A DNA stretch of 64,000 nt from Trichomonas tenax. Lineage: Eukaryota; Parabasalia; Trichomonadida; Trichomonadidae. Below the pieces are notes generated by a model. It worked only from the letters and a program-made list of their open reading frames with translations. It made no database searches and was not told the origin of the DNA. Below, piece after piece: positions 4,578 to 45,947 of the stretch. Location of the stretch: the NCBI GenBank assembly GCA_023091735.1, contig JALKBU010000040.1, forward strand, positions 48,978 to 112,977. Direction: 5' to 3'. Made by a program: the position numbers and the translations under genes. Each line of letters opens with the position of its first letter. The first letter of the stretch is position 1.

Positions 4578-4681
4578 TTCTTTTTCTGCCATTTTACTCC
4601 TACTTCATAGTATTATCAATTAATTGTTGTCAAGTAATTATTGATTTTGCCATGTAAAATCATAAATTTTCCCACTTTACT

Positions 4682-5065
4682 ATGGGTAAGACTTTCAATT
4701 CCAAACCAAAAACGAAATCAAAGAATGCTAAGGCTCAAGGTGCCAATGCCGCATCTCAACATGCAAGTTCTGAATCTCAACGATCTCAAATGACTGACTC
4801 TGAAAGTAATGAATCTATGAAACTTGATATGTCATCATCTAGATCCATCCTCACAGCATCAAACGAATCACTACAAAGCAATGGCAGTATTGTTGCTATA
4901 TCAAATTTGCAATATTTACCCTGCAACATTGAGGAAATTTTTCTAGAAGGCAACACCATAAAAATAAGATTCAAACATAAAGAAAATTTCACACCTATCT
5001 TTAACTACAGGGGCAAAAAACTTTGCTTCAATAGAGTAGACAGAGACTATTTCGTTTATGTATAA
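4682..5065 (+). CDS. Small hypothetical protein, Ser/Lys-rich N terminus
   Basis: This 127-aa protein starts with a lysine-rich stretch (MGKTFNSKPKTKSKNAK), then a serine/glutamine-rich linker. The C-terminal 55 residues are ordered-looking (LQYLPCNIEEIFLEGNTI, then YRGKKLCFNRVDRDYFVYV). I do not recognise a family. It is divergent from histone H3, with about 130 bp between the ATGs, so the two may share a promoter region. A nuclear, nucleic-acid-binding role would fit the composition but is a guess. Confidence 0.55.
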   Translation: MGKTFNSKPKTKSKNAKAQGANAASQHASSESQRSQMTDSESNESMKLDMSSSRSILTASNESLQSNGSIVAISNLQYLPCNIEEIFLEGNTIKIRFKHKENFTPIFNYRGKKLCFNRVDRDYFVYV

Positions 5066-5526
5066 TAAGCAGAGCATTGCTTTATCTAATGGGATTTAGT
5101 CGATAAGATTGATTTTGTTAATAGATAATATTTATTAATTTTTTTAAATTAACTTTTACTTGCAAATAAGTAAAAAATATCCATATCGCACGGATATCAT
5201 ATAATGTTGGCAGAGCATGCTGTATGATTTCAATTTATAATCAGTGATGACATTGGTGAGCATTTGGATTCCCAATATCTCTTTTCGGTTATAAGTGAAG
5301 AGATTTTGATTTTCCAAAATGAGATAATTTAAGGATGTCGTTATGGAAGAACTTTGCAAAATGCCGAAACACATAAAAATTTAAAAATTTGATAAAACTT
5401 AGGAATTTTACCGAATATATATTTGGAAAAGTGAAGAAATATATGAATCATGAAGTTACAAAACAAAAAAGAAAACATTTCATTTGAGGAAGTTCCTTAG
5501 ACGGTTAGTGAAGTTCACTTGAAAAG
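5066..5526. other. AT-rich spacer with possible pseudogene trace
   Basis: The minus strand at about 5400-5431 encodes a peptide (FHFSKYIFGKI) that recurs at about 54024-54052. The surrounding frames are broken, so this is probably an old gene remnant. Confidence 0.3.
5515..5520 (+). promoter_or_regulatory. Initiator-like TCACTT before Mnd1
   Basis: TCACTT lies 7-12 bases before the Mnd1 ATG and matches the trichomonad initiator TCA-Py-(T/A), where the A is the usual transcription start. Confidence 0.5.
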
Positions 5527-39280: not shown

Positions 39281-39776
39281 AATCATAACACAACTTTAAT
39301 TAATAATTTATTTTTTTTTTTTGAGATATAATCATAGCTGATATGTGTTTGAACTCGAATTTAATCACGAATTCTTATTCTCAAATGTCTACGACTGTAA
39401 CAATAATATCAAATCGAAATAATATTTCTAGAATTATAATATTAATAATATTAAACACAATAGACATTCAGCAAATTATTAATTTTGGGTTAAAAGCAAT
39501 CAGAGGCAAAAATAGAATTTCGAATTCATGAATAGAATGAAATTTGAAAAAAAATTTTTGAAATATTATAATAAAATGCAAAACAAATTTCATCAATCAT
39601 GGAGAACATGATTTGTTAATTTTAGCATATGAATCTTAATATCAATCGATTAGAAAACTAATTCATATATTCTTTAAAAATGGGAACAAAATTTAAGGAT
39701 TGCAGGTAAAATAATAAGAATAATAATCAATATAAGTAAATAAGGAATATTTAAATTCAAATAGTTATATGTAGAA
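39281..39776. other. AT-rich spacer before tRNA-Lys
   Basis: No supported gene. Oligo-A/T tracts are typical of DNA upstream of tRNA genes here. Confidence 0.5.
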
Positions 39777-39850
39777 GCCTGTGTAGCTCAACCGGATAGA
39801 GCATAAGACTCTTAATCTTGGGGTTGCGGGTTCGAGTCCCGCCACTGGCT
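39777..39850 (+). tRNA. tRNA-Lys (CTT)
   Basis: The cloverleaf can be drawn: acceptor GCCTGTG/CACTGGC, D-stem GCTC/GAGC, anticodon stem TAAGA/TCTTG with loop CTCTTAA (anticodon CTT), T-stem GCGGG/CCCGC with loop TTCGAGT. A-box (TAGCTCAACCGG) and B-box (GGTTCGAGTCC) fit Pol III promoters, and T5 follows as terminator. One acceptor pair (position 4-69) is a T-T mismatch. The 3' end of the gene is duplicated at 43702, flanking the inserted retroelement. Confidence 0.93.
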
Positions 39851-39854
39851 TTTT
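39836..39854 (+). repeat. 19-bp direct repeat (left copy), tRNA-Lys 3' end
   Basis: GTCCCGCCACTGGCTTTTT is identical at 39836-39854 and 43702-43720. The preceding base differs (A versus T), so the repeat is exactly bounded on its left side. It is read as the target-site duplication of the element between. Confidence 0.9.
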
Positions 39855-40148
39855 AGATGTTTTTTCCTTTCTCTTTTCCGTTTTTAGCTGACGACGAGAC
39901 GCTCGCGCAGTCGGCGGTCAACATTTGCGGCGAATATAACATGAAAGAAATAATGCACATGAAACTCACGAACTTCATTAAGAACGCTCAAGCAGCGCCG
40001 GAATTATTGAACAGGAAAAGATAAGTTGCAATTCAAAATGAAACAGCAACCGTTCAACTGTATGCAAAGCAAGTTAAGAATGAGTTGACAAAACTCAACC
40101 AAATTAAATCCTGCCACGATATAATCGGAACACGGGCAAACAATTTCA

Positions 40149-40847
40149 TTGACATACTCAACGAAAAACTACTGGAAATACCAAAAAGTACAGATCAAAG
40201 GACATGACTTTAGCAATCTTTTACAGACAATCGAGAAGATGGGCAAAATCACAAAAGCATTTCTCAAATCACAAAACGAAGACATACATGAAATGGAAAA
40301 CAATTTCAAGCAACTTAATGATTGCCTCAAAGAATACGCTACAGAATTCACAAAAACAGGAAATTTCAAATATTTTGAAAAAATTGGCAAAATCACATTC
40401 GCGATGAAAAGTGGTTATGAGAACTCAGATCTTGAATTTTTCATGGATAACGATCCACCAGAGCACACTATCTCAAGCACAAACTCATCAAGTTCTTCAA
40501 GCTCTTCAGAATCAGAAGTTGAACAAATCAACAATGATCAAAACAGGAGTAACACCAATAGTATGAGCATCCAAGAAAGTCAAAATCGAAATCAATTAAC
40601 TCAACCCTCACAGAGCAGAAGAAGCGACATTGAAAACAGCAGTCAAGCGATCGCCAACCATAGTGAAGCTCAAACTCCGTCGCAAAGTCAACAACAGCTA
40701 AATAACAATGATAATCATTCAGCAGATCAAAGCGAACAAAGCGAAGATCAAGAATCAGAAGTCGAAAACTCTGCATACGGAATATATGGACTCACTCTAC
40801 ATCAACTCAACCTACTGAAAGCGCTCTCAAGAAAACTCAGAACATGA
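40149..40847 (+). pseudogene. N-terminal ORF of the retroelement, Ser/Gln-rich
   Basis: About 230 residues: a helical start (LLQTIEKMGKITKAFLK) and then a long Ser/Gln/Asn/Glu-rich tail. The frame has no proper ATG, and an alternative frame before 40,200 (IDILNEKLLEIPKS) looks equally coding, so a frameshift near 40,190 is likely. It corresponds to an ORF1 or N-terminal extension. Confidence 0.5.
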
Positions 40848-41678
40848 AGGTCGACGGGTGATGTCTCAAACTGGGTCAGAGAAGTAGACAACAGAGTTAA
40901 TTTCGAACTAGAGGGAGACCTAACAGAGGCACCTCTAGAGTGTGTGATGATGACTAAGCATAAATTCCCTCCAGCGGAATGTCTGGAATTAATATGCGGA
41001 AATCCAACGTGCAATCAGAGATTCAAGGAACACAGCCTTCGCGAACAGTATTGGAGAATGGCACACCAGCTGAACAAATCTCGTCACGCACCTGTTAAAG
41101 TGATCAATATAGCAGCATGGATTATGGAATACAGAGTTCGAACAACAAGAATAGATTTCAATGAAGCGCGAAGATAGCGAAATATACTTGAATTACCGGC
41201 ATTTTGCCCCTTATGCAATTACGGAACAATAAAAGAGGAAGCATTTGTTCAGCAGCTTGCTGACAGGCACAATACCAGCGAACTTCCAAAAGACATGCCG
41301 AAGTTCTGGAAGATGTTAATAGTTAGCAGCGAACAAAATTTGATTAGCTTTAATAAGCTTACGAAGGAACAAGAAGGATTTGGATGCAGATACTGTGACT
41401 ACTGGTCGAACAGCAGAAGATTCACCAGCTCACACATTAGTCACTCCCACAAGGAGCACCAACGTCCAGGTGAGAAAGAGCCAATCGGTTCGAGAATCAA
41501 ATGCATCGCGCATCCAGCTTGTGATGAACCATCGGATAATGATGATGATGAAATCATCAACATCCAAAATGCTACTCAGTCAATAGAAGAAAACCAGAGT
41601 GAACAAGAAGAAGCAATTCATGAATCACTATCAGTCGAAGCTCAAGATGAACAGCGGAGAAAATCTGAACAGGATTGA
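40848..41678 (+). pseudogene. Zinc-finger region of the retroelement
   Basis: One frame with a single TAG at 41175-41177. It carries three Cys/His motifs: C-x4-C...H (CGNPTCNQRF...MAH), C-x2-C...H (CPLCNYG...DRH) and C-x2-C-x12-H-x3-H (CRYCDYW...ISHSH). N-terminal fingers of this type bind target DNA in site-specific R2/NeSL-like elements, so they are a good candidate for tRNA-gene recognition (inference). Confidence 0.55.
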
Positions 41679-42035
41679 GGGATCAGAGCATAAGAAGGTG
41701 CAACTGGTGAAGATCGAAGATCAGACTCCCACGGAGAGCAAAGACAAACAGAATCACAAAGAAGAGAAGAACAAGCAAGAGTATCTCAACAAAGTGAAAC
41801 TGATCCTAATCATCAAACAAGAACACAAAGAAGTGGATCTGAAGATGTTCAAAGGACAGTAGCTCATGAAGATCAAAGACAACCACAAACATAAAGAAGA
41901 GAAGCTCAACAAAACCAAAGAAGAGATAATCAAGAAGTTGAAAGAAGAGAATCACAAAGAAGACAAGATCATAGAGAAGATGAAAGAAGAGACACCCAAC
42001 CAGAACAGAGAACGGAAGATGACAGAAACATCAGG

Positions 42036-43593
42036 TTGAGACCAGAGTTATCGAGAAACGAATTCGAATACTTCCTCAACCTAGGAAGACAGAACAACTA
42101 CACTGAAAGTCAAGTCGGAAAGCTCCACTTGAGAAGAAGAAACAAACTCATGGGAGTTAGCCAAAGCTACTGGAAAGATACCGCAGTCCCACTTCTGGAA
42201 AGAATACAGAACATCACAAGAGGCAATGACGAAGAGAAGTTCTATGTGTTCAATGGAGCAGTATCATATCTCATCTTGAAGCTCCTCAAGGCAATAACAG
42301 ATACGATCAAACCAAGAAGAGGCAACAAGAGATCAAACAACAAAGGAAGATTGGAGTTGGCATGCTCCCCAAGGAACTTGGGCAAATCAGATGGCAAGAC
42401 GAGGGATTGCCCATCCAGCCCACACATCAGAGGACACTTTCATCAACATGCGGAACAGCCCAAACCCACAAACAGCACTGTTAATGAAAGAATTCATAAG
42501 AAGAGAGAGGAACAAACGAGGCATCAATGCATCCAACGACTCATCATTCCTCGACTGGGAAACAACACCAGAAGGAGAACTGATGACCGGGAGATGTGGG
42601 ACAGCATCACTTATCATCCTTGCCAAAGTAGCAGCAGCCAAGCTAAAAGCCAAAAATAGTCTACTGCGACAACAAAGCAGCACTCAAGATCCACGGTGAA
42701 ACACCAATCTCAGACTCCAAAGCAGTCACAAAAATAATCATGAAATGTGAAAGTGAACATAGCATGAACAAAATATTTGAGCTCCTTGTTCATGGACACA
42801 GCTTCCTGAATCTCAAAGACAACAGAGACTGCAATGTTATCGTTGGAAACTATTCCAACAGAGTCAGCGACAAGGTCATCAAATTCGCACTAAGTGCAAG
42901 ATGCAACGCGCTGTACAATGAATATCTTCATTCCCGCAAAGGCCTGCCACAGAATACAGGATCTAACTGCTCTTATTGCGGTAAAGGGAAAGAAGATTCG
43001 CTGAAGCATCGAATCAACTCTTGCCGCAATGCTTTCATACAAATGATGATTCGACACAATAAGATAGTCGATATCATTGCAAAGGAGGCTGTCCATGCTT
43101 TCGCGGGATACACAGTTAAGTTTAACTCAACTGTATCCATTCCAAACAAACCAGCAATCCAAGGCGAGTCAGCGAGACTCAAGCCCGACATCATCATCTA
43201 CAACAAGTCAAAAATCTGGATAGTCGACATAACTTGCCCATACGACGACATATCAGATAATGGATAGACAAAGATGCAAAGCACATACGAAGATAAGATC
43301 AACAAGTATGCTGATCTTCGAAACCAATGCGAAATAAGGCTGAGGATGAAAGCATATCTCTTCCCAATAGTCATCAGCTCGCTTGGTGTCTTCTAGAAGA
43401 AATGTGGAAAGCATTTGATGAAGTTAATCGGAGCGAGGAAAGAAACATCGAAGAAGATGAAGTCGACAATCAGAAAAATGTCGATTTCGGCCATAACTTC
43501 ATCATTCTGCATTTTAACAACATTCCAATCAGAGGAGAACACAATGAAGTTACTGATGAAAAAATCAGTAATCTCAGAAATGAAGAACAATAA
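42036..43593 (+). pseudogene. C-terminal endonuclease region of the retroelement
   Basis: At least two frame changes (near 42,360 and 42,660) and stops at 43,265 and 43,394. The first 115 residues (SRNEFEYFLNLGRQ...LKLLKAITDTIKP) are a helical domain, and the middle is unassigned. From 42,665 the frame reads YCDNKAALKIHGE... and then CSYCGKGKEDSLKHRINSC (CCHC), KPDIIIYNKSKIWIVDITCPYD, KINKYADL and FPIVISSLG. This is the restriction-like endonuclease order, with the PD...D-type catalytic residues kept. Confidence 0.7.
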
Positions 43594-43701
43594 ATAATCC
43601 CACATACACCAAAAGTGCCAGCACAACACCGTTGCACCCCCTCAAACTTATCAATATGTTAATTCCAACATTTTAGATAATGTGCGAATAAACTTTTACT
43701 T

Positions 43702-43720
43702 GTCCCGCCACTGGCTTTTT
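43702..43720 (+). repeat. 19-bp direct repeat (right copy)
   Basis: Same 19 bases as 39836-39854, followed by two more T. It represents the last 15 bases of tRNA-Lys plus the T-tract, without the B-box, so it cannot be transcribed alone. Confidence 0.9.
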
Positions 43721-43906
43721 TTGATTTTCTCTCAATTTTTAGGTAAATTTCAGAATTAAAAAGGTAACTGTTTTTATTTTTTGATAATAAAAATACCAAT
43801 TTATTAAGATGCTAAATCCATTTTCATCATTAGAAAATTTTTATCTCCATTATTTAATGAAAGATGATTATTTTGTAAACTTTACATCAAATTGTCAAAA
43901 AATATT

Positions 43907-45440: not shown

Positions 45441-45504
45441 TTTTGGGATTTCAAGATAAAGAAAGGTGACATCTGGGATTAAAACTTCGATAAAATTTTG
45501 AGTT

Positions 45505-45576
45505 GGGGGTGTGGCTTAGTGGTAAAGTGCGTCTTTAGCATAGATGAGGCCGGGGGTTCGATTCCCCTCACCTCCA
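45505..45576 (+). tRNA. tRNA-Ala (AGC)
   Basis: Acceptor GGGGGTG/CACCTCC with discriminator A, D-arm GGCTTAGTGGTAAAGTGC, anticodon stem CGTCT/AGATG with loop TTAGCAT (anticodon AGC), T-arm GGGGG-TTCGATT-CCCCT. A T4 tract follows. 72 nt, no intron. All stems pair, with G-T pairs in the acceptor, anticodon and T stems. Confidence 0.95.
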
Positions 45577-45947
45577 TTTTTTCATTCACGAAAAATTTCG
45601 GTTGGAAATGCGAAAAAATAGAGCATTAAACAACAAGAGTAAGGACAAATTATGCACATTCTTTTTATCATTAGAAGACCAAATGCAACTATATTAAAAA
45701 ACTTAATAAAAAGTATTTTTCATAATTTCATCTCTATAAAATATCATTACAGAATCAAAATTTCAAGATGATCTTTGGAAGAAGCAGTTAAAGAAAGCTC
45801 ATGCTCTGGCTTTAGATTTTGCATGAATCATAACATCATTGACATGCAATTAAATGTGGATTTGGAAATAACTCGATACTATTTTTGATAATAAATAACA
45901 AATTTAAGAAAATAACAAATATAATATAATAATGTAATTATAAAAAA
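45577..45947. other. AT-rich spacer
   Basis: No feature seen after the tRNA terminator. Confidence 0.5.

Follow-up and report, generated by a model that had tools for sequence, protein, structure and literature searches.

RLE-type non-LTR retrotransposons as candidate tRNA-gene-specific elements at tRNA-Lys, tRNA-Asn and tRNA-Met genes of Trichomonas tenax

Introduction

RLE retrotransposons such as R2, which interrupts its host gene, attract interest as tools for site-specific insertion. The described element that bears most directly on the present locus is named NeSL-1_TV, where TV presumably stands for Trichomonas vaginalis. Passages of the literature record it as a tRNA-Pro gene-specific, NeSL-related element (Kojima and Jurka 2015, PMC4640811; also named in PMC7650587), so that the remark in a preliminary description of our locus that no such element was known for the group has to be corrected. 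Likened by description, NeSL-1_TV and the elements considered here are both RLE-type non-LTR elements with apparent tRNA-gene specificity, but the former targets tRNA-Pro and the latter tRNA-Lys(CTT), tRNA-Asn(GTT) and tRNA-Met. No paper dedicated to the T. vaginalis tRNA-Pro retrotransposon was found in open-access full text. New here are the Lys, Asn and Met targets (as far as open-access full text extends), the occurrence of several families in one genome, and a chimeric tRNA gene.

Further relatives are described in passages of PMC4640811. Planarian LIN15_SM (tRNA-Arg) and LIN25_SM (tRNA-Glu) are RLE-type elements in tRNA genes, from a lineage that switches targets; they are flatworm elements of the R5/LIN lineage, unlike those here. 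Utopia, NeSL and R5 elements carry N-terminal zinc fingers, a central RT and a C-terminal zinc finger with RLE, an order that the elements here, with their zinc-finger-like motifs, may share, and have precise 3' and variable 5' boundaries; their target is U2 snRNA or spliced leader. According to excerpts of PMC3414825, R2 is excised from a 28S co-transcript, and tRNAs with CCA can serve as templates for its jumps; its target is 28S rDNA, whereas tRNA genes or remnants of them precede the 5' ends read here. Dictyostelium TRE5 and TRE3, in excerpts of PMC5911963 and PMC5006619, are likewise non-LTR elements near tRNA genes, but they use an APE endonuclease rather than an RLE and keep some way off the gene (for TRE3, 40-150 bp downstream) instead of entering one tRNA species at a given base. 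In excerpts of PMC8869645, Dada comprises families that have specialised in different tRNA genes, Lys and Asn among them, but these are DNA transposons inserting around the anticodon or the A box.

Results

The window is the whole analysed stretch of 64,000 nucleotides, in which the following features were located.

39776..39851, + strand: tRNA-Lys (anticodon CTT), intact target gene (ARAGORN)
39836..39854, + strand: 5' copy of the 19-bp repeat, the tRNA-Lys end plus TTTTT (exact match)
39855..43701, + strand: decayed retroelement copy of the family labelled Lys-A here (alignment to copies between the same junctions)
39857..40021, + strand: start of the element reading frame, MFFPFSFPFLADDETLAQSAVN..., 55 codons open, two bases past the T run behind the tRNA
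39934..39941, + strand: deletion site, at which about 1.38 kb of copy C29 (about 1.31 kb of C651) is absent (BLASTN against L033 and L035)
40995..41090, + strand: first zinc-finger-like motif, CGNPTC...H...H (translation)
41205..41275, + strand: second zinc-finger-like motif, CPLC...H (translation)
41385..41450, + strand: third zinc-finger-like motif, CRYC...H...H (translation)
42342..42343, + strand: point of the missing RT; RT sequence lies beyond it in C1362 and C1508
42647..43267, + strand: open frame in which the CCHC knuckle lies at about 42968 and the RLE motif KPDIIIYNKSKIWIVDITCPYD at about 43181
43268..43396, + strand: remaining RLE module (...YADL...VISSLG), same frame, past a stop
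43702..43720, + strand: 3' copy of the 19-bp repeat, read as the original tRNA-Lys tail displaced downstream
43721..43882 (end approximate), + strand: downstream module conserved at tRNA-Lys(CTT) loci (12-locus alignment)

The preliminary description had placed a retroelement between two copies of a 19-mer behind an unharmed tRNA-Lys gene, and each part of this picture was recovered. With up to two mismatches allowed, the 19-mer GTCCCGCCACTGGCTTTTT had exactly two matches in the window, both on the + strand and both exact (39836-39854 and 43702-43720), and two matches were reached in 0 of 100 shuffles (mean 0.00, largest 0). The whole assembly (53.4 Mb) held 10 exact copies, the reversed control none. 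These shuffles and genome counts, together with the identical tRNA-Lys loci, ruled out a chance origin of the repeat. The upstream tRNA-Lys(CTT) is intact and shows 100% identity over 78 nt with four more loci. The retroelement nature of the interval is evident from the RLE module of the window copy and the RT of sister copies, and the motifs named earlier were all located: zinc-finger-like motifs, CCHC (42968), K-P-D (43181) and V-I-S-S-L-G (43370).

The frames of the window element are interrupted by stops and frameshifts. RT pieces of sister copies found no counterpart within it; their three window matches all lay outside the element, with E values of 0.64 to 0.87. By its reading frames, then, the interval holds a dead Lys-A copy, with broken frames and the RT gone. 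Pfam recognised no fingers on the window frames; the second zinc-finger-like motif of the C29 copy scored E 0.12-0.33, below the cut-off, and zf-C2H2 in the relative L079 reached 9.9e-5, also below the model's cut-off. For the RLE, Pfam gave no hit on the pieces searched. An alignment of the CCHC/RLE region from 11 sequences showed C, C, H, C, RH and PD columns that were invariant or nearly so.

The RT of sister copy C212 matched Pfam RVT_1 at 4.3e-36. The best PDB match of the element RT was R2 (6.4e-36), which was also the best for the element RLE (4.7e-7). No APE endonuclease model was found by Pfam among 10 element pieces, nor in L077 or L079. In an RT tree of 103 rows, drawn from database hits among which the Met family and NeSL, R4, CRE and HERO references do not figure, the Asn, Lys-A and Lys-B rows formed one clade (support 98/87). 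On this tree the Asn family shares its RT lineage with Lys-A, and on sequence similarity the RLE of the Met family is related to that of Lys-A. A protein search with the Lys-B RT piece found one protein, and a scan of viral contigs returned 65 pattern stretches with no relatives among them. A scan of 11 of the 14 MAG loci found no tRNA gene. No complete element was seen in a single contig of the host genome; the full architecture was assembled from partial copies and from L077, a contig of another genome with an unbroken 1832-aa frame that is open at the contig start and ends in a tRNA-Asn tail.

Across the host genome, element 5' ends lay directly behind tRNA genes and in the same orientation. 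This arrangement was found at 12 of 14 tRNA-Lys(CTT)-like loci (11 of Lys-A type, one of Met type), at all seven complete tRNA-Asn genes and at the sole complete tRNA-Met found. tRNA-Lys(TTT) was rejected as a target, with an element 5' end behind none of five genes. N-termini similar to MFFPFSFPFLADDETLAQSAVN were found behind tRNA-Lys, tRNA-Asn and tRNA-Met genes. A search with motif ATGTTTTTTCCNTTYCC, independent of tRNA queries, gave 11 genome matches, every one of them at the 3' end of a tRNA, and none with the reversed control; the first bases of the element matched seven sites including the window copy, all behind tRNA-Lys or its remnants. The expectation that other copies would sit at tRNA 3' ends with the same offset was thus borne out at tRNA-Lys loci. 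The proposed tRNA-gene specificity held for tRNAs as targets but not for Lys alone, since Asn and Met families were found: the tRNA targets seen in the host were tRNA-Lys(CTT), tRNA-Asn(GTT) and tRNA-Met, and as read from these junctions the genome has several element families, each at a different tRNA.

Both element ends were seen at five of the 11 Lys-A-occupied loci and at one Asn locus (C751); at the other six Lys-A loci the 5' part alone was seen. Searching the genome with the RLE frame gave 20 matches. Among the nine loci outside Lys-A, four had a tRNA tail (C801, C908, C821 and C212), while no tail appeared at C864, C751 (at 68.2 kb), C308, C970 and C38, where reading extended 800-900 bp past the match. 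The C864 RLE fragment lies near a tRNA-Lys(TTT), with no readable junction. C821 has an Asn tail and neither a tRNA gene nor a tRNA-Asn half in the 9.5 kb scanned, and C1084 carries an internal Lys-A piece without a tRNA.

All 10 Lys-A 3' ends found, located with a query that included the tail, join the tRNA tail from one and the same T-loop nucleotide (eight with GTCCCGCC, two with GCCCCGCC). The junction TTCGA|GTCCCGCC lies inside the B box. The insertion had been placed exactly at the tRNA 3' end; the element does adjoin the tRNA, but the first cut appears to fall inside the T-loop (TTCGA|GTCCC). The GGCTC variant occurred in 0 of 11 5' tails and 3 of 10 3' tails, which is not significant (p 0.09). 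For the Asn family five 3' ends were available, two of which (C88 and C751) were found through the tail itself.

One locus, C883, carries a chimeric tRNA, composed of a 41-nt exact tRNA-Lys prefix and a 38-nt exact tRNA-Met suffix that overlap in TAATC, without CCA; a Met-type element sits behind it. Like C107, C883 lies at a contig end.

Discussion

The observations are best explained overall, with a probability of roughly 0.8, by an RLE non-LTR retrotransposon (Lys-A) that would be specific for a tRNA gene, prime in the T-loop and keep the gene whole. Zinc fingers of the element protein would recognise the target and the RLE would cut it, nicking the bottom strand in the tRNA T-loop, where reverse transcription would be primed; given such priming, the old tRNA tail would end up behind the element. 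A second tRNA tail would complete the 5' side, and the tRNA gene would stay whole. The putative template RNA would be a tRNA-element co-transcript that starts inside the upstream tRNA and joins the target through tRNA homology. If true, a single genome holds elements of this kind that have come to exploit three or more tRNA species. Several such families side by side, with a defined site in a different tRNA gene for each, would provide matched protein/target pairs from which recognition rules could be read.

An association of this kind would say little on target choice if a few insertions had been spread as tRNA-element units by segmental duplication. Upstream flanks are indeed common to the locus at 2 kb of C884 and that of the window (88%, 190 bp), to C1334 and C866 (84%, 69 bp) and to C883 and the C684 tRNA-Lys locus (87% identity over 348 bp), and the downstream module is also common to loci. 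However, the remaining upstream flanks among the 13 CTT loci compared had no match or one of 18-40 bp, three tRNA species are targeted by several families, and an Asn tail occurs on a contig of another genome; we consider duplication unlikely. Still more improbable, to a degree that we would almost set it aside, is that the 19-bp segment belongs to the element's own 3' UTR or 5' end and merely resembles the target. It would account for the roughly 160 bp conserved past the tail at 12 aligned Lys loci, but this module is likewise found behind the pair of unoccupied tRNA-Lys genes (C1031, where part is lacking, and C801), whose similar downstream flanks supplied the comparison with an empty locus that had been called for. 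About 70 bp behind the C801 Lys-B element resemble the module start by eye, of which BLAST confirms 25 bp, and Asn-family 3' flanks diverge past the T run, with one 24-bp match among five loci. Moreover, the Met-family 3' end carries the Met tail at two loci (C810 and C1045) and the Lys tail at a third (C107), so the repeat is target sequence; the C107 Lys tail and the downstream flanks ruled out the tail as element sequence.

The repeat had been called a target duplication, of which the target origin stands, while the 5' copy may derive from template RNA and not from staggered cutting. In a classical duplication the bottom-strand cut would fall in the T-loop, the top-strand cut some 19 nt further downstream, past the T run, and repair would double the 19 bp. 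Two perfect copies in the window agree with this, as do the 20-bp TSDs of reptile Utopia families in passages of PMC4640811. Three tRNA-Asn halves broken at TTCGA| would agree with a staggered cut whose 3' overhangs were trimmed back ahead of end joining, and equally with a blunt cut. Against it stands C883, one locus: staggered cutting of tRNA-Lys would be expected to leave the tail of tRNA-Lys behind, but the 3' half there is Met; we rate classical duplication at somewhat less than an even chance. At this one locus, the chimera points to a 5' tail that is carried along by the template RNA. An R2-style template jump to mature tRNA was rejected, as no CCA occurs at the 17 listed 5' junctions; the C883 chimera, without CCA, is therefore not such a jump. 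It would be uninformative on template RNA if it formed only once the element was in place, with the tRNA-Met locus of C1081 as donor in a gene conversion or recombination. Such exchange is possible, since the element 5' ends of C883 and C1081 agree at 112 of 113 bases, but the switch within a 5-nt identity (TAATC) leaves little homology upstream, and a retrotransposed co-transcript explains the chimera in one step; the conversion account comes close to an even bet without quite reaching it. On balance we lean slightly towards template RNA, rather than a staggered-cut duplication, as the source of the second tail.

A phage-like lineage can be proposed tentatively, at just under even odds, in which a template-borne tRNA 3' half rebuilds the target, the first codons serve as a Pol III terminator and cross-target jumps yield chimeras. 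Insertion would restore the target because the tRNA 3' half is carried in the element's own RNA template, and a cross-target jump would make a two-tRNA chimera, as at C883, because the tRNA end travels with the element. Were the tRNA end template-borne, a retrotransposon would be using the attachment-site trick known from phages and genomic islands, and tRNA genes would have a route by which they get rewritten. The first codons, ATG TTT TTT, form the T6 run behind the tRNA. ATGTTTTTTCC follows tRNA-Met and carries this run; there the native terminator is displaced, and the element's T6, which may act as a Pol III terminator, is the first T run.

A relic at a tRNA-Lys gene and its copies in the genome

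The 19-mer GTCCCGCCACTGGCTTTTT was found exactly at 39836-39854 and 43702-43720 of the window, with no third site there at up to two mismatches and a mean of 0.00 occurrences in 100 shuffles. With two exact copies and a tRNA-Lys(CTT) gene called by ARAGORN, the 19-bp repeat claimed in the preliminary description to flank a tRNA-Lys-associated insertion is real. The zinc fingers and CCHC/endonuclease module ascribed to the interval were likewise recovered, as zinc-finger-like motifs and a CCHC/restriction-like endonuclease (RLE) module in broken frames. The window element gave no match to reverse transcriptase (RT) pieces from sister copies, and showed a gap at ~42343, where contigs C1362 and C1508 carry RT sequence. 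The window copy is a relic, and its assignment to a tRNA-specific RLE retrotransposon is well supported.

Features in the window
39776-39851, tRNA-Lys(CTT) gene (ARAGORN)
43721-43882, downstream module, also at 11 other tRNA-Lys(CTT) loci with similar length and an end near GATTATTTTGTAAACTT
45504-45577, tRNA-Ala(AGC), about 1.8 kb downstream of the element

We searched the assembly containing the window (53.4 Mb, 1528 contigs) for further copies at tRNA 3′ ends, a check that had been proposed. The RLE peptide gave 20 matches, and a tRNA-Lys query at least 19 loci, 14 of the CTT kind (including 5′-truncated C29, degenerate C1039 and C866, and the chimera C883) and five TTT, these locus counts being lower bounds. 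Reading the downstream sequence at each revealed an element 5′ end behind the tRNA at 12 of the 14 CTT-kind loci, the unoccupied ones being C1031 and the tRNA at C801:3147, and at none of the five tRNA-Lys(TTT) loci. In the sequence examined, the 3′ end of the window's family, termed Lys-A, was also seen at five of the 11 loci with a Lys-A 5′ end (window, C1334, C1039, C29, C1217); the other six showed the 5′ part only (C651, C377, C684, C866, C884 at 2 kb, C612). C1084 contains internal Lys-A sequence, with neither end present and no tRNA. A second tRNA-Lys family, Lys-B (L034, C801, 109-3221), comprises RT (in two frames) and RLE, the latter 45% identical; its 3′ end, GTCACTGGCTC, is followed about 85 bp further on by another tRNA-Lys gene, which is unoccupied.

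Related families behind tRNA-Asn and tRNA-Met

Outside Lys-A, a tRNA tail (tRNA 3′ end plus T run) was present at four of nine loci with RLE matches (C801, C908, C821, C212) and absent from the 800-900 bp read at the other five (C864, C751, C308, C970, C38). One of these, L044 (C38), has a very distant RLE frame (4633-5289, 25% identity) with no tRNA in the 8 kb examined. The distant RLE copies C908, C821 and C212 terminate in ...CACTCGGGAGGAGATTTTTT or close variants, resembling the 3′ end of tRNA-Asn(GTT); two more such ends, in C88 and C751, were found by searching with the tail itself. C908 and C212 start inside the element, leaving the 5′ side out of view, and the 9.5 kb examined at C821 contained neither a tRNA gene nor a tRNA-Asn half. 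Each of the seven complete tRNA-Asn genes, which do not differ over 81 nt, has the start GAAAATGTTTTTTCC behind it, with one extra T in C751. The pattern ATGTTTTTTCCNTTYCC had 11 genome matches against none in the reversed control, all 11 at tRNA 3′ ends: six Asn, three Lys, C1081 (tRNA-Met by ARAGORN) and the chimera C883. For the Met family, C107 provides 569 bases of the 3′ part; the RLE C-terminus encoded there shares 47% identity with P0001 and 41% with the Asn family. Of 137 proteins, the 103 rows with 105 or more matched residues entered an RT tree, none of them from the Met family. In this tree the host genome's RTs of the Asn, Lys-A and Lys-B families formed one clade (98/87), within which Lys-A and Lys-B grouped at 100/82.

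Element starts and Lys-A 3′ tails
Start, Asn family: MFFPFPFPYSRAVRSVD
Start, Met family: MFFPFPFPFLASEESIAQT
Start, Lys copies (variable; window example): MFFPFSFPFLADDETLAQS
Lys-A 3′ tails (n = 10): eight GTCCCGCC, two GCCCCGCC

Target sequence and cut position

One and the same Met-family 3′ end runs into a Met tail at C810 and C1045 but into a Lys tail at C107, with a Lys-A 5′ end coming next there; judged from these junctions, the 3′ tail is target sequence. The possibility that the repeat belongs to the element, raised in the preliminary description, is thereby ruled against for the 3′ tail. Comparison with the two empty tRNA-Lys loci, also suggested there, revealed a shared ~160-bp module behind the tail, present at ten occupied loci and, at least in part, at both unoccupied ones. 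It is conserved at tRNA-Lys(CTT) loci, whereas most upstream flanks are not, and had no match in the flanks of the five tRNA-Lys(TTT) genes. Behind the Lys-B element it extends about 70 bp by eye, 25 bp of which BLAST confirmed. The module seems to belong to the locus.

At all ten Lys-A 3′ ends, found with a query that included the tail, the tRNA tail resumes at the base after TTCGA, the T-loop position. Met-family ends are compatible with a cut there or within about two bases; the Asn-family cut base is less certain than that of Lys-A, since a few bases of the tails do not match the tRNA. Three tRNA-Asn 5′ halves (L073, C1171; L074, C784; L075, C1186) break off immediately behind TTCGA, with a one-base ambiguity in one case, a tally that leaves out two more incomplete matches (C888, C192). 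The C1186 half is fused to sequence that is intact at C751. The cut site TTCGA| looks like a rearrangement hot spot.

Origin of the 5′ tail

The C883 tRNA joins an exact 41-nt tRNA-Lys prefix to an exact 38-nt tRNA-Met suffix, the two sharing TAATC where they meet. Its upstream flank is 87% identical to the C684 tRNA-Lys locus over 348 bp, and its element start agrees with that of C1081 at 112 of 113 bases. The simplest reading would be that a Met element moved into a tRNA-Lys gene, its template starting inside tRNA-Met; the main rival is that gene conversion produced the chimera. CCA is absent at the C883 chimera; for R2, PMC3414825 describes template jumps onto CCA-bearing tRNAs. A tail-variant test (0/11 vs 3/10) was not significant (p 0.09). 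That the tRNA end may be template-borne is the bold part of the Met-element reading, resting mainly on one locus, C883.

Behind the tRNA at C1081 and C883, no run of at least four T comes before the T6 of ATG TTT TTT, at +5, and the coding start may double as a Pol III terminator. In the Met-like piece C1033, which is unoccupied, the T run begins at +7; after displaced tails it begins at +9 (C810) and +5 (C1045).

Known elements and relatives in another genome

The preliminary description knew of no such element for the group; however, PMC4640811 reports NeSL-1_TV as tRNA-Pro-specific and planarian LIN15 and LIN25 as tRNA-Arg- and tRNA-Glu-specific, so tRNA-specific RLE elements are an already known kind. 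The same paper gives 20-bp target site duplications for reptile Utopia. In the literature searched we found no such element with tRNA-Lys, tRNA-Asn or tRNA-Met as its target, no genome with several tRNA-specific RLE families and no chimeric tRNA linked to them.

A scan of contigs from other genomes yielded 14 loci, and none of the 11 scanned for tRNA genes contained a complete tRNA. Three of the 14, L077-L079 (CAMWTP010000157.1, 188 and 162), come from a MAG labelled Lachnospiraceae. L077 carries an uninterrupted frame of 1832 aa that runs off the contig start, with RVT_1 at 1.7e-34; its RLE part shares 28% identity with that of the window, and its 3′ end runs into CCACACGGGAGGAGATTTTTTT, a tRNA-Asn tail. 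L078 and L079 reveal no target, since they stop inside the frame and near its stop codon, respectively. Given the long open frames of their non-LTR retrotransposons, these contigs look like eukaryotic contamination; the L077 contig has probably strayed into the bacterial MAG from a eukaryotic genome.
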